Part shown: piece after piece, positions 11,280-33,941 of the stretch
How the letters are laid out: each line of letters begins with the position of its first letter
Numbering within the stretch: the first letter of the stretch is position 1
Assembly (NCBI RefSeq): GCF_003201935.1
Contig: NZ_QJJL01000003.1
Location: forward strand, 496,001-560,000
Direction: 5' to 3'
DNA from: Loktanella sp. PT4BL
GTDB lineage: Bacteria > Pseudomonadota > Alphaproteobacteria > Rhodobacterales > Rhodobacteraceae
DNA length: 64,000 nt
The notes under the pieces: model-generated
What the model was told of the DNA's origin: nothing
Database searches by the model: none
Seen by the model: only the letters and a program-made list of their open reading frames with translations
Position numbers and translations under genes: made by a program

Positions 11280-11374
11280 TTCTTGCACCTATCAAGAGCG
11301 TTCTGCTCGGTTCTGTGACGACAGATTGGGTGCGAATAGTTAAGAAAATGTTTCTGCAAAACGAAGGGCACGGG

Positions 11375-11653
11375 ATGCAACACGAACAAGCCGAAGTGAT
11401 TGCGTTGAAGGGGCTGGCGTGGCTGGCCGGCAATGACGAACTCTGCCCGGTTTTTCTGGGTGCTTCAGGCGGAACGGTCGATGATCTGCGCGACCGCGCG
11501 ACAGATCCTGCTTTTCTGGCCGCTGTGCTGGAGTTCATTACCATGGATGACACATGGGTCATCGAATTTTGTGATAGCACCGGATTGGGATATGATCAGC
11601 CGCTGCGCGCGCGCTACGCGCTCCCTGGCGCTGAAAGCGTGCATTGGACCTAA
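11375..11653 (+). CDS. DUF3572 family protein
   Basis: A 92-residue soluble protein starting MQHEQAEVIALKGLAWLAGNDEL and ending in LPGAESVHWT, the characteristic beginning and end of the DUF3572 family of Alphaproteobacteria. No catalytic motif is apparent and no function is known. An AAGGG ribosome site at about 11363 supports the ATG at 11375 over upstream in-frame starts. It is divergent from the PleD-like gene, an arrangement I recall as conserved in Alphaproteobacteria. It converges with, and overlaps by 4 bp, the reductive dehalogenase gene. Confidence 0.85.
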   Translation: MQHEQAEVIALKGLAWLAGNDELCPVFLGASGGTVDDLRDRATDPAFLAAVLEFITMDDTWVIEFCDSTGLGYDQPLRARYALPGAESVHWT

Positions 11654-14600
11654 AGGTCGATTCTGAGCGTTCCGCCCGCCACTGACGCACGGCTCTGGCA
11701 CAGGATGATCTCGGTCTCGCGCTGGGTTTTGGAAAGCACAAAGTCGCGATGCTCGACAGCCCCTTCAAGCACGCGGCATTTGCACACACCGCAGAGACCA
11801 TCAGAACATTTCACATCCACATGCACCCCCGCGGCAATCAGCGCATCAGATGCCGACTGGTCAGCAGCAACATCCACGGTGCGTCCGTCTTTCAGGACCA
11901 GCATAAACGGGTGATTTTCATAATCGGGCTGTTCCGGCACAGCGAAATATTCAAGATGCCGCGCCTCTTCGGGAAAGCCGTTTTTCGCCGCGGCATCCAT
12001 GACTGCGGCCATATAGGCATCAGGTCCGCAGGTGTAGATATGCGCTCCTGCAACATAGCGGGTGAGCGCCGCAAGATCGGCACGTGTGCCTTCATCCGAG
12101 ACATGTAATGCCACGTTATCCGCCCAAGGTACCGTTGCCAGATCATGCAGAAATCCAGCTTCTGCACGGCTCGGAATACTGTAGTGCAGCATGAACGCGG
12201 CACCGATCGCATGGAGCCTGTGGGCCATCGCGATCATTGGCGTCACACCGATCCCGCCGCCCATCAACAGGGTCTCAGAGGCGTCCTCGACCAGCGGGAA
12301 ATGGTTGATCGGGGGCGAGATGAAGACGCGCCGGCCTTCCGTGAATATGCGGTGCATGAGTTTCGAACCGCCACGGCCCGCATCTTCACGCAGCACGGCA
12401 ATCTGATACTTGCCATGATCGGCCGGATCACCACTGAGCGAGTACTGGCGGAAGAATTCAGGGGCCACGACCACATCAATATGCGCTCCTGCGGTTGCGG
12501 GTGGTAACGGGCCTCCGTCAGCGCGGGTGAATTCATATTTCGTCACCTTGTCCGTCATCCGTTCGGCCTTGCTGACGATCGCTGCGATGACAGGTGTCTC
12601 GCCCTGAACGGGCGCGTAGATATGCTCGGGCGGCAGACCTGCGGCACGGCGCGCGCGGTGTTCATCGGCGGTGATCATGGCCTGATAGGCGGCGATCCCT
12701 GCCTCGCGGTCCATGGGCGCGGGCCAAGGGTAGGGGGGTGGTGCCAAAGGGGCGGGATAGACAGCCAGCGTCTGGTCGCTGAATTTCAGGTCCAGCTCTG
12801 GCTGAAGATTGCGGGCGTTGACCGGATGGCGCGCAGGGCGGTAGGCGCCGTCGTCCTCCATCTCCAGGTCCCACCACCATTTCTTGACGGGGTTGATCGC
12901 ACCTTTCCCGAGGCGGTCATCAAGGGCAGCCAGCGTCTTGGCCGCCTGTGGCACGGTCATCGCCAGCTTGCGAAACGGCGCTTCGGCGAAAAGCCCTTCA
13001 AGGTTCCACGGGCAGGTTTTCATACAGCGCCCGCACATCGCCCCGTTCTTCTGGCTGACGCGGTAGGTCGTGCATTTCTGGCTATCGGACTTCCAGATCT
13101 CGTAGCCGTTGAACATCAGCTTCGGCCCTGCGGTGATCGCACCAGAGGGGCATTCGCGGGCGCATTTGTTACAGGCGTCACAGAATTTTTGCAGACCAAA
13201 GTCGATGGGTTTGTCATGCGTCATCGGCATGTTGGTGGTGACAACGCCGGATTTCAGGCGCGGCCCAAGGAAGGGGTTCAGGATCACCTCGCCAATGCGG
13301 CTGACCTCACCCAGTCCCGACAGCAACAAGAGTGGCGGATGCAGCACCTCTTCGTCCATCACCGAATGAACGCGCGCTGTATAGCCCAGATTGCGCAAAT
13401 GCTGGGCCAGCACACCGCCCAAAAGCGAGAACCGCAAATAGGCGCGCATGGATTGCGCACAGGCGATCCAGTCGTCGCCGGATGCCCCTTCCATGGTTTC
13501 ATGGCCCTGATCGATGATCATGGAAATCGCGTGATCGTGGTAGGGGGTGATCGGCGCGCCGGTGGTGTCGTGGCTGTAATAGGTCCAGTCGGGGCAGGCC
13601 GACAGGCCCACGGCATCGACACCCAAAAAGTAAAGCGCGGCCTTGATGTTGGCGGCGTTGTTTTCAGGCGTGTCCACGACGGGTTCGCCCACGGCCTCGC
13701 CGTCCTGCAGAAGCACAAAGGCTCCCAGCGACGGCCGGAACGCAAAGGCGGCTGCGGATTTGCGGACGTAGTTGCCGTTCTTGGTGGCCTCTTGCACCTG
13801 CTTGCCCATATCACCGAAGAGCCCGCGTACGAACATATTTGCGCGTTTGGGCACCCGCGCGACGTTTGCGCGGTCGATGTAGGTCGTGGGGTCATCCACC
13901 CGTTTCAGCGTCTCGAAAGGATGCGGGCCGAGGGCGAAATCGCGCTTGGCAAAGGGATCGCGGGTGCGGGCAGTCCTGGCATGGGTGCCGAGCCCCGTGT
14001 GATAGCTGCGCGGTGCCTGCTGTCCTGGCGCAAGAGGTTTGTCCGGTGTCATCGCCAGCGTCGTTGTGATCGCTGCCAGTCCGTAGCGGTCACCGGTGAA
14101 TGGGTTCATGAGTGCGCCGTCCTCCAGCGCGACAAGGCCCGCAAGGGCCGCAAGAGCGCCCAGATGCACATCGGTGGCGGCCATTGAATGGGCGCGCGCC
14201 TCATGGCCCAGCGTGCGGATATAGCTGGCCAGTGTGACGGCTGTTTCCATTCCGCGCAGGCAGGCGCGTTGGGGCAGCGCGTCCTTGATCCAGCGGGTCC
14301 CCTGTTCGCTCTCCTCGGGCGCGCGGGGGTGGTCGTAGAGAAACACCAGCGCATGGGTATGATGGCGGCAATCGGCGGGTGGCAAAGACATGCTTTCCCG
14401 CAAGCCCGCCATAATCACGTCAATCCCGGCGGCAAGCGACTTTGGCTGCATTGTGCGCAGTTTATCTGCAAGCCTGTCCACATCCGGATTGATGATCGGG
14501 GTTTGCAGCCAAGCAGCTTTGGGCACTGCGCAGACGCCCACCATGCTGGCGTCACAGTAATATCCGAAGGCTTTGAGATGATTGGCTCTTTCCGTCAGGT

Positions 14601-14835
14601 CTTCAGGGATTTCGGCCATCTCGCGCTTGACCATGCCGTCGCGGGTGGCGTCCAGCATCGCCTGATAATGCTGCATCGCGCCAATAATGCTTTTGCGATC
14701 GTCCGGTCTGCGAAAAGACACCGGATCCATCGGCGGAAGCGCTGACAGATCAACATGATCCACACGCCGCAGGCTCTCGAGCGGGAAGCCACCCAGATGC
14801 ATTGGCCGTGTGCGGTAGGATCGGAGTTTCAACAT
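11650..14835 (-). CDS. Reductive dehalogenase fused to FMN/NAD/2Fe-2S reductase
   Basis: A 1061-residue multidomain protein. Residues about 1-545 resemble the corrinoid-dependent reductive dehalogenase core. Two 4Fe-4S clusters follow: C552-x2-C555-x2-C558-x3-C562-P, and C588 with C601-x2-C604-x3-C608-P. From about residue 745 there is a phthalate-dioxygenase-reductase-like module: flavin motif RQYSL (796-800), nicotinamide motif GGGIGVTP (859-866), CGP (936-938) and a plant-type 2Fe-2S centre C1010-x4-C1015-x2-C1018-x27-C1046. There is no Tat signal, so it should be cytosolic and aerobic-tolerant, like the catabolic enzymes BhbA and NpRdhA. NAD(P)H would feed electrons internally to cobalamin. 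No anchor gene rdhB is nearby. The substrate is unknown. Confidence 0.88.
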   Translation of the reverse strand: MLKLRSYRTRPMHLGGFPLESLRRVDHVDLSALPPMDPVSFRRPDDRKSIIGAMQHYQAMLDATRDGMVKREMAEIPEDLTERANHLKAFGYYCDASMVGVCAVPKAAWLQTPIINPDVDRLADKLRTMQPKSLAAGIDVIMAGLRESMSLPPADCRHHTHALVFLYDHPRAPEESEQGTRWIKDALPQRACLRGMETAVTLASYIRTLGHEARAHSMAATDVHLGALAALAGLVALEDGALMNPFTGDRYGLAAITTTLAMTPDKPLAPGQQAPRSYHTGLGTHARTARTRDPFAKRDFALGPHPFETLKRVDDPTTYIDRANVARVPKRANMFVRGLFGDMGKQVQEATKNGNYVRKSAAAFAFRPSLGAFVLLQDGEAVGEPVVDTPENNAANIKAALYFLGVDAVGLSACPDWTYYSHDTTGAPITPYHDHAISMIIDQGHETMEGASGDDWIACAQSMRAYLRFSLLGGVLAQHLRNLGYTARVHSVMDEEVLHPPLLLLSGLGEVSRIGEVILNPFLGPRLKSGVVTTNMPMTHDKPIDFGLQKFCDACNKCARECPSGAITAGPKLMFNGYEIWKSDSQKCTTYRVSQKNGAMCGRCMKTCPWNLEGLFAEAPFRKLAMTVPQAAKTLAALDDRLGKGAINPVKKWWWDLEMEDDGAYRPARHPVNARNLQPELDLKFSDQTLAVYPAPLAPPPYPWPAPMDREAGIAAYQAMITADEHRARRAAGLPPEHIYAPVQGETPVIAAIVSKAERMTDKVTKYEFTRADGGPLPPATAGAHIDVVVAPEFFRQYSLSGDPADHGKYQIAVLREDAGRGGSKLMHRIFTEGRRVFISPPINHFPLVEDASETLLMGGGIGVTPMIAMAHRLHAIGAAFMLHYSIPSRAEAGFLHDLATVPWADNVALHVSDEGTRADLAALTRYVAGAHIYTCGPDAYMAAVMDAAAKNGFPEEARHLEYFAVPEQPDYENHPFMLVLKDGRTVDVAADQSASDALIAAGVHVDVKCSDGLCGVCKCRVLEGAVEHRDFVLSKTQRETEIILCQSRASVAGGTLRIDL

Positions 14836-14875
14836 AGGTTGACACCGTCGGGCGGGCAGGGTCCGCTGTCAATGG

Positions 14876-15598
14876 ATGATGAAAGGGCGCGCGGTGATCA
14901 AAGGTATCATTTTTGACAAGGACGGGACGTTGTTTGACTTCAACGCCACGTGGGGGGCGTGGACGCGTGGGATGCTCGACGCCGAAGCGGGCCATGATCC
15001 GGTGCTTTTTGCACGTCTGGCGGATGTGTTGGGATATGATGTCCCCGCAGCTACGTTCCGTCCCGAGAGCATCGTCATCGCGTCCACGGCAGGCGAGGTG
15101 GCGGAGATCATCAGATCGGTCTTGCCCGATCTGGATGCCGACGCGCTTTTGTCACGGATGAATGCGGCGGCAGCGGCTGTGACGCAGGTCGAGGCGGTGC
15201 CGTTGCAAAGCTACTTTGCAGGTTTGCGTGAATTAGGTTTGCGTCTGGGCATCGCCACAAATGATGCCGAAGCCCCCGCGCGGGCGCATCTGGCGCGCGC
15301 AGGTGTGACGCAGCATTTCGATTTTATCGCAGGTTATGACAGCGGCCACGGTGGGAAACCCGCGCCGGGACAGCTTTTGGCTTTTTGTGCCGAAACAGGG
15401 CTGGGAGCAGAAAATTGCCTCATGGTCGGCGATAGTACCCATGATCTGCACGCGGGCCGTGCTGCAGGGATGCGCACGATTGGCGTGCTGACCGGCCCTG
15501 CGCCGCGGGAAGAATTGTCACCGCTGGCCGACGTGGTTTTGTCGTCCATCGGTGACATTCCGGGATGGCTGCAATCCGAGAAGCTATTGGCCGAGTAA
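14876..15598 (+). CDS. HAD-family phosphatase (phosphoglycolate phosphatase-like)
   Basis: A 240-residue HAD hydrolase. Motif I is FDKDGTLFDF (the nucleophile and general acid Asp pair), motif II the Thr of GIATND, motif III the Lys of GGKPAPG, and motif IV MVGDSTHDLHAG. The cap insertion lies between motifs I and II. These enzymes remove phosphate from small metabolites; phosphoglycolate is the usual annotation, but substrates vary. The gene is divergent from the dehalogenase fusion with only 40 bp between starts, so the two may share a promoter region. It converges on znuA, with a 26-bp palindrome between. Confidence 0.85.
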   Translation: MMKGRAVIKGIIFDKDGTLFDFNATWGAWTRGMLDAEAGHDPVLFARLADVLGYDVPAATFRPESIVIASTAGEVAEIIRSVLPDLDADALLSRMNAAAAAVTQVEAVPLQSYFAGLRELGLRLGIATNDAEAPARAHLARAGVTQHFDFIAGYDSGHGGKPAPGQLLAFCAETGLGAENCLMVGDSTHDLHAGRAAGMRTIGVLTGPAPREELSPLADVVLSSIGDIPGWLQSEKLLAE

Positions 15599-33437: not shown

Positions 33438-33820
33438 GCGCGGATGGCTGGATGGCTGCGGTCCCGGAGTTGATCCGGGGTCGAGGAAAGTCCGGACTCC
33501 AAAAAGCACGGTGCCGGGTAACGCCCGGCGGGGGTAACCCTAGGGAAAGCGCCACAGAGAACAGACTACCTGACCCCGGTCAGGAAAAGGTGAAACGGTG
33601 GGGTAAGAGCCCACCGCGCGAGCGGTAACGCAAGCGGCACGGCAAGCCCCACCGGGAGCAATGCCAAATAGGGACCTCGCGCCGAAAGGCGGGGATGCTT
33701 GAGCCCCAGACGGTCCGGGTTGGCAGCTAGAGGGTGTCTGGTAACAGGCACTCCAGATGAATGGTCATCCATCCGCGGGCAACTGCGGGGGACAGAATCC
33801 GGCTTATAGGCCATCCGCGC
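33438..33820 (+). ncRNA. rnpB: RNase P RNA (class A)
   Basis: The transcript has GAGGAAAGTCCGGACTCC near its 5' end (about 33483-33500), the conserved CR-I/P4 block, and ACAGAATCCGGCTTATAG near its 3' end (about 33792-33809), which forms the other half of P4. The terminal P1 helix closes exactly: GCGCGGATGGC at 33438-33448 pairs with GCCATCCGCGC at 33810-33820. Class A bacterial architecture and a length of about 383 nt are normal for Alphaproteobacteria. It is the catalytic RNA that matures tRNA 5' ends. It starts 10 bp after the amidase gene. Confidence 0.97.
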
Positions 33821-33941
33821 ATAAACAAACCATCAGGACACCTGTTTGCTGTTGACTCGGGCCAAGGCGCGGGTAAAAGGCACCTTCTATGAGATACACG
33901 CGATGTGCCGCGCGTCGGCCCGCAATCAGAGGATATGAGAT

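Follow-up and report, generated by a model that had tools for sequence, protein, structure and literature searches.

The DNA analysed here, referred to as the window, is a stretch of 64,000 nt from Loktanella sp. PT4BL (contig NZ_QJJL01000003.1, positions 496,001 to 560,000, forward strand). On its reverse strand lies a gene for a protein of 1061 residues, termed RdhA-PDOR in the following, which is predicted to encode a reductive dehalogenase (RdhA) fused to a reductase module of the phthalate-dioxygenase-reductase (PDOR) type. The open reading frame begins with ATG and runs without interruption from 14835 down to 11650, and its start codon is supported because residue 3 of the protein pairs with residue 2 of NpRdhA, a reductive dehalogenase of solved structure. 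From the N-terminus to the C-terminus, a vestigial copy of the RdhA fold is followed by the catalytic RdhA core, two 4Fe-4S clusters and the PDOR module.

Architecture of the fused gene

The features of the gene, in window coordinates and with the evidence for each, are:

11650..14835, reverse strand: predicted fused catabolic reductive dehalogenase gene (RdhA-PDOR), 1061 amino acids; TIGR02486 above cut-off, NpRdhA at E 8e-167, BhbA 49.4% identical over the full length
14017..14364, reverse strand: vestigial N-terminal RdhA-fold copy (residues 158-273); agrees with the core copy at 42 of 118 aligned columns
13195..13935, reverse strand: catalytic RdhA core (residues 301-547) with Y466, K528 and C459; profile, structure-sequence alignment and comparison of homologues
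13459..13461, reverse strand: codon of Cys459, counterpart of NpRdhA A419 (second-halogen pocket); alignment and comparison of homologues
13012..13182, reverse strand: two 4Fe-4S clusters (C552/555/558/562 and C588/601/604/608) with substrate-binding R592; Pfam and NpRdhA alignment
11677..12576, reverse strand: PDOR-type reductase module (residues 754-1053) with flavin and nicotinamide domains and a plant-type 2Fe-2S domain; 2pia match and Fer2

The reductive dehalogenase model TIGR02486 (NCBIfam) scored 202 bits on the protein at a cut-off of 160.35. A search against solved structures returned NpRdhA (4ras, E 8e-167) as the best solved relative, matching residues 3-104 and 155-733 and leaving residues 105-154 unaligned between the two matches; fusions of the JtRdhA type are described as sharing an insert in the RdhA domain (PMC10463259; this paper and the others cited below, PMC7565698, PMC13101508 and PMC12016517, are drawn on from partial text). 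In the cluster region the Pfam families Fer4_7 and Fer4_16 were above cut-off, and dicluster 4Fe-4S matches covered residues 552-611. The C-terminal residues 754-1053 matched phthalate dioxygenase reductase (2pia, E 5e-49) and also the reductase portions of two P450 fusions. Within this part a GGGIGVTP motif starts at residue 859, and Fer2 was found at residues 983-1050 with 39.8 bits at a cut-off of 21; by their motif, C1010, C1015, C1018 and C1046 are presumably the ligands of the 2Fe-2S cluster. An earlier note on this DNA had read the gene as a dehalogenase with two 4Fe-4S motifs after its core, followed by flavin, nicotinamide and 2Fe-2S motifs of its own reductase, and had proposed a search of the C-terminal part against PDOR; each of these parts was recovered.

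Comparison of the protein with itself revealed that residues 158-273 repeat residues 432-549 with 36% identity over 118 columns (E 1e-14). At the positions aligned to Tyr466 and Lys528 of the core, the N-terminal copy carries Cys192 and Gly252. A vestigial duplication has been described for catabolic RdhAs (PMC10463259), and at the sequence level the repeat is this known duplication.

No twin-arginine translocation (Tat) leader was seen at the N-terminus by inspection and alignment, no signal-peptide program having been run, and rdhB is not beside the gene, the two abutting genes encoding a haloacid dehalogenase (HAD) superfamily hydrolase and a DUF3572 protein. Both absences had been stated in the earlier note. 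Scans for promoters and for terminators found about as many candidates as in shuffled sequences (2 against a shuffle mean of 1.3, and 3 against 2.8, respectively).

Active site and identity of the enzyme

The six active-site residues of NpRdhA that were compared (F291, S422, M423, Y426, K488 and R552) correspond to F335, S462, M463, Y466, K528 and R592 of RdhA-PDOR and are all identical, and each of the cysteines C552, C555, C558, C562, C588, C601, C604 and C608 pairs with a cysteine of NpRdhA. The alignment of active-site residues that the earlier note had called for thus came out in favour of a dehalogenase. In NpRdhA, the substrate hydroxyl is held by K488, R552 and S422, the position of Y426 suits it as proton donor and the halogen ligates cobalt (PMC7565698). 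Conservation was followed in a comparison set of 120 rows, namely the window and 119 loci (some genomes being present in two collections), which reduced to 107 distinct rows after merging of identical ones; all 14 positions were invariant in 107/107, the window included.

Pocket position 459 varied between lineages. Its counterpart in NpRdhA, A419, lines the pocket for a second halogen, and the exchange A419M moves preference toward mono-halogenated substrates (PMC7565698). On a quick tree of the rows, in which 24 of 104 inner branches are open, the window falls in a clade of 22 rows. Position 459 is Cys in all 22 of these and in 60/63 rows of the rest of the large clade around them (82/85 together), Val in all 19 rows of the sister clade as well as in an Aminobacter row, and Ser in BhbA and in Nitratireductor sp. 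OM-1. This split was not met in the partial texts on NpRdhA, JtRdhA and Ros_A3X954, no dedicated literature search for it having been made.

The sequence-level membership tests that were run place RdhA-PDOR among the self-sufficient catabolic RdhAs, and it is read here, with a probability of roughly 0.9, as a cytosolic enzyme of the same kind as BhbA and JtRdhA. Cofactors, electron path, oxygen tolerance and mechanism are inferred from characterised relatives. NAD(P)H would transfer hydride to flavin mononucleotide (FMN) in the C-terminal PDOR module, from which single electrons would travel over the 2Fe-2S cluster and both 4Fe-4S clusters to the RdhA core with its base-off cobalamin. The substrate halogen would ligate cobalt while Lys528, Arg592 and Ser462 hold the phenol or phenolate oxygen, Tyr466 would donate the proton, and halide would leave. 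Ortho-bromo or ortho-iodo 4-hydroxybenzoates and related phenolics are the likeliest substrates, and the product 4-hydroxybenzoate could feed the PobA and protocatechuate 3,4-dioxygenase route of the host. An NAD(P)H-driven dehalogenation of a bromo- or iodophenolic compound is supported by its agreement with the behaviour of purified JtRdhA (PMC10463259).

Two other identities were weighed and rejected. Since QueG (epoxyqueuosine reductase) and RdhA belong to a single class of cobalamin enzymes (PMC10463259), and the QueG model TIGR00276 matches residues 487-611 weakly, the protein might be a QueG-like corrinoid enzyme whose substrate is not an organohalide. This is highly improbable: the QueG model reached 22.6 bits against its cut-off of 200, whereas the RdhA model reached 202 against 160, the host genome holds a separate true QueG (contig C6, 453.8 bits), and all dehalogenase active-site residues that were checked are kept. 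The earlier note had itself raised a better QueG match and missing corrinoid-contacting residues as grounds for doubt; the RdhA model scored higher, and the residues known in NpRdhA to bind the substrate, donate the proton or ligate the clusters are kept without exception. A membrane-anchored respiratory reductive dehalogenase, with which the core and the clusters are shared and whose representative PceA matches residues 444-654, is less probable still, because the architecture contradicts it: the protein has its own NAD(P)H reductase and an internal duplication, and neither a Tat leader nor rdhB was found on inspection of the N-terminus and of the abutting genes.

Distribution, gene neighbourhood and candidate substrates

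The survey covered 394 genomes of the family to which the window belongs, nearly one per genus, and a genome was taken as a carrier at a best E-value of 1e-94 or lower. A homologue was found at this threshold in 152/394 genomes, a count to which the genome of the window itself and three partial matches contribute, so the rarity that the earlier note had ascribed to the fused type does not hold in this family. Some match at E 0.001 occurred in 323/394 genomes, many of these matches being weak; in the host genome a single RdhA gene exceeded the cut-off, the weaker hit on contig C6 being the true QueG. Among the best 80 of 247 contig stretches encoding a relative, the nearest come from Loktanella, Yoonia and Roseobacter sp. 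CCS2 (92% to about 82%).

The surroundings of the gene in the window are:

14876..15598, forward strand: HAD-superfamily hydrolase gene, flanking and syntenic; Pfam HAD_2
11315..11653, forward strand: DUF3572 gene, convergent, with a 4-bp overlap with the 3' end of RdhA-PDOR
14836..14875, no strand: divergent 40-bp gap to the HAD gene, the site of a MarR gene in many relatives but not here; tblastn of the rows

Neighbours were counted by tblastn within 1.5 kb over the 120 rows. The HAD hydrolase lies upstream of the homologue in 78/120 rows, DUF3572 downstream in 64/120 and a PleD/GGDEF-type gene in 53/120; in the latter the GGDEF model is above its cut-off and the PleD model below its own. 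The keeping of one site across the large clade suggests vertical inheritance, and the HAD, DUF3572 and PleD-like neighbours are taken as ordinary synteny, not as functionally linked to RdhA-PDOR. As the earlier note had stated, no other degradation gene stands beside RdhA-PDOR, its flanking genes being of these three types. The same window contains an RNase P RNA of bacterial class A (33440-33822, forward strand, 299.9 bits), and the replicon is therefore chromosomal; homologues also exist on plasmids. This RNA was the sole Rfam match in the window at gathering score, and no B12 riboswitch was found there at these scores.

A MarR gene accompanies the homologue in 58/120 rows, in 57 of them upstream and on the same strand. 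It is missing from those 21 of the 22 rows in the window's clade that include enough upstream sequence (the remaining locus, L009, has only 437 bp) and present in 25/30 rows of neighbouring clades, and no close copy of the linked MarR was found elsewhere in the host genome, the best match having 29% identity. The pattern is most simply explained by a single loss in the window's clade, with other losses elsewhere, e.g. in Litoreibacter. The MarR regulator BhbR2 activates a 3-bromo-4-hydroxybenzoate operon (PMC12016517).

Further recurrent genes in the upstream flanks of the homologue are an MttB-family methyltransferase in 45/120 rows (e.g. L005 7591-9195 and L018 4618-5208) and a haem-NO-binding protein in 27/120; both are probably synteny. 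Two loci stand apart. In a metagenome-assembled genome (MAG) labelled Pimelobacter, of the Actinomycetota (L056), homologue and neighbourhood fall beside Maritimibacter (L070) on the tree; a wrong label or contamination of the MAG is the probable cause, not a transfer. On contig 29 of genome G340 (202387-205005), the match to residues 3-868 is located inside an open frame of 2585 amino acids, which may be another fusion or an error of assembly.

With regard to the substrate, the gene for 4-hydroxybenzoate 3-monooxygenase (pobA, over the curated cut-off) lies 16 bp and 344 bp from the homologue in two family genomes. A third genome has pobA as the adjacent gene at 90 bp, 78 of which are N, so that the true distance may differ, and in two more genomes it is about 10 kb away; these adjacencies are a lower bound, among the matches listed. 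A pobA-like match lies 2.3 kb away on the plasmid of BhbA, and in Nitratireductor sp. OM-1 pobA is found 3.4 kb from the homologue, together with ring-cleavage genes. The five pobA-linked family loci, all of them in the Val459 sister clade, were chosen because both genes lie on one contig, and 7/120 is not to be read as a frequency. Under random placement, at least three cases within 1.5 kb among 115 genomes would have a probability of about 1e-4. At the level of genomes, pobA was over the cut-off in 115/152 genomes with the dehalogenase and in 139/242 without it (odds ratio 2.3, p 2e-4, relatedness not controlled; each genome was called by its E-value, and two borderline ones were placed below the cut-off). 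The host itself carries pobA, pcaC, pcaH and pcaG together on contig C2, over curated cut-offs and away from RdhA-PDOR, as well as the cobalamin gene cobN. Because these pobA and pca genes are present, dehalogenated 4-hydroxybenzoate could probably be used by the host.

That some ortho-halogenated phenolic is the substrate of RdhA-PDOR is very likely. Within this class, ortho-halogenated 4-hydroxybenzoates and related phenolics are the best-supported and rather likely substrates, because the gene abuts pobA in some relatives and the host has pobA, pcaC, pcaH and pcaG. The earlier note had left the substrate open; the gene order of relatives together with the host genes has narrowed the choice.

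Several points weigh against the reading of RdhA-PDOR as a self-sufficient dehalogenase of such compounds. Ros_A3X954, a shorter marine catabolic reductive dehalogenase, lost activity in oxygen (PMC13101508), and oxygen tolerance of RdhA-PDOR is therefore not guaranteed. Cys459 differs from the Val of the pobA-linked clade and from the Ser of BhbA, so the substrate may differ, too, and Lys307 of NpRdhA, which can form a salt bridge with a carboxylate, pairs with Thr351, with an alignment gap nearby and Lys352 adjacent. No catabolic gene stands beside RdhA-PDOR, and pobA was in none of the flanks of the 22 rows of its clade (10 kb on both sides in 18, less in L009, L034, L045 and L085). Finally, the AlphaFold model, built from an alignment of 28 sequences, is weak, with a mean predicted local distance difference test (pLDDT) score of 67.8, below 50 in the cluster region 552-620, and a predicted template modelling (pTM) score of 0.55. 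A Foldseek search with this model ranked chains of NpRdhA 1-14 (best E 4.5e-44, TM by target 0.66-0.68, root-mean-square deviation about 12 Å), followed by P450-fusion and PDOR-type reductases. This agrees with the sequence evidence and supports the predicted fold and nothing finer, neither site geometry nor electron path.

Instead of supporting growth on halogenated 4-hydroxybenzoate, the same chemistry could also serve to detoxify bromophenols or iodophenols, such as those used by algae or animals as chemical defences. The fixed neighbourhood of HAD upstream and DUF3572 and PleD/GGDEF-type genes downstream, free of catabolic genes, fits this role, as does the activity of JtRdhA and Ros_A3X954 on simple bromophenols (PMC10463259, PMC13101508). 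Moreover, with the linked MarR gene missing from the 21 judgeable rows of the clade, the gene may be expressed without substrate control. Set against the joint presence of pobA, pcaC, pcaH and pcaG in the host and the greater frequency of pobA in genomes with the gene, phylogeny not being controlled, detoxification is possible though unlikely. Somewhat more doubtful is the further idea that the window's lineage forms a functionally distinct RdhA-PDOR branch, a vertically inherited and possibly constitutive enzyme for clearing organobromine or organoiodine compounds, with its own preference for halogen or substitution pattern, and not a growth enzyme. It is suggested because of Cys459 (82/85 against Val in 19/19), the fixed site without catabolic neighbours and the missing MarR in the window's clade. 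The split at position 459 and the linkage to pobA provide two testable handles on substrate choice.

Comparison with characterised reductive dehalogenases

Four RdhA subfamilies are defined in PMC10463259. By description, one of the closest known systems is JtRdhA of the marine bacterium Jhaorihella thermophila (WP_104007082), which has the same domain order as RdhA-PDOR and shares with it the vestigial duplication, two 4Fe-4S clusters, the fused PDOR, the lack of a Tat signal and the Tyr/Lys/Arg site. Purified JtRdhA contained about nine irons and was partly loaded with cobalamin and FMN; it is NADPH-driven and active in air, and turns over ortho-bromo and ortho-iodo phenolics but not the chloro analogues tested (PMC10463259).

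BhbA of Comamonas sp. 7D-2 (plasmid pBHB, WP_015585978), the first described, can be aligned with RdhA-PDOR over its full length at 49.4% identity and keeps all catalytic residues, but has Ser instead of Cys at 459. Its gene is carried by the plasmid, surrounded by genes for transport and for an extradiol (protocatechuate 4,5-) dioxygenase, with the pobA-like match upstream. NpRdhA of Nitratireductor pacificus (4RAS, 6ZXU, 6ZXX) resembles RdhA-PDOR in core, duplication and active-site residues and is about 40% identical to it in the Foldseek alignment, but has Ala at the second-halogen pocket and, according to the available text of PMC10463259, no fused reductase. Of the two proteins that the earlier note had named as fusions, BhbA thus remains and NpRdhA does not.

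Ros_A3X954 of Roseobacter sp. MED193 is, like RdhA-PDOR, a catabolic debrominase without a Tat signal, here from a Roseobacter; unlike RdhA-PDOR it is of the short type, with clusters at residues 283-345, and is reported to be oxygen-sensitive (PMC13101508). Strain MED193 also has a fused RdhA-PDOR homologue (L082, 10001-13207), which is 65% identical to that of the window.

RdhA-PDOR is not a new kind of enzyme, its kind being already known from purified JtRdhA and common in the family. With it, a biochemically characterised type gains a chromosomal member, from a host that belongs to a largely marine group; given how widespread the type is in the family, NADPH-driven debromination may be a routine trait there. 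New in this analysis are the linkage to pobA in some relatives together with the pobA and pca genes of the host, the lineage-specific residue 459 and the absence of MarR in the window's clade.

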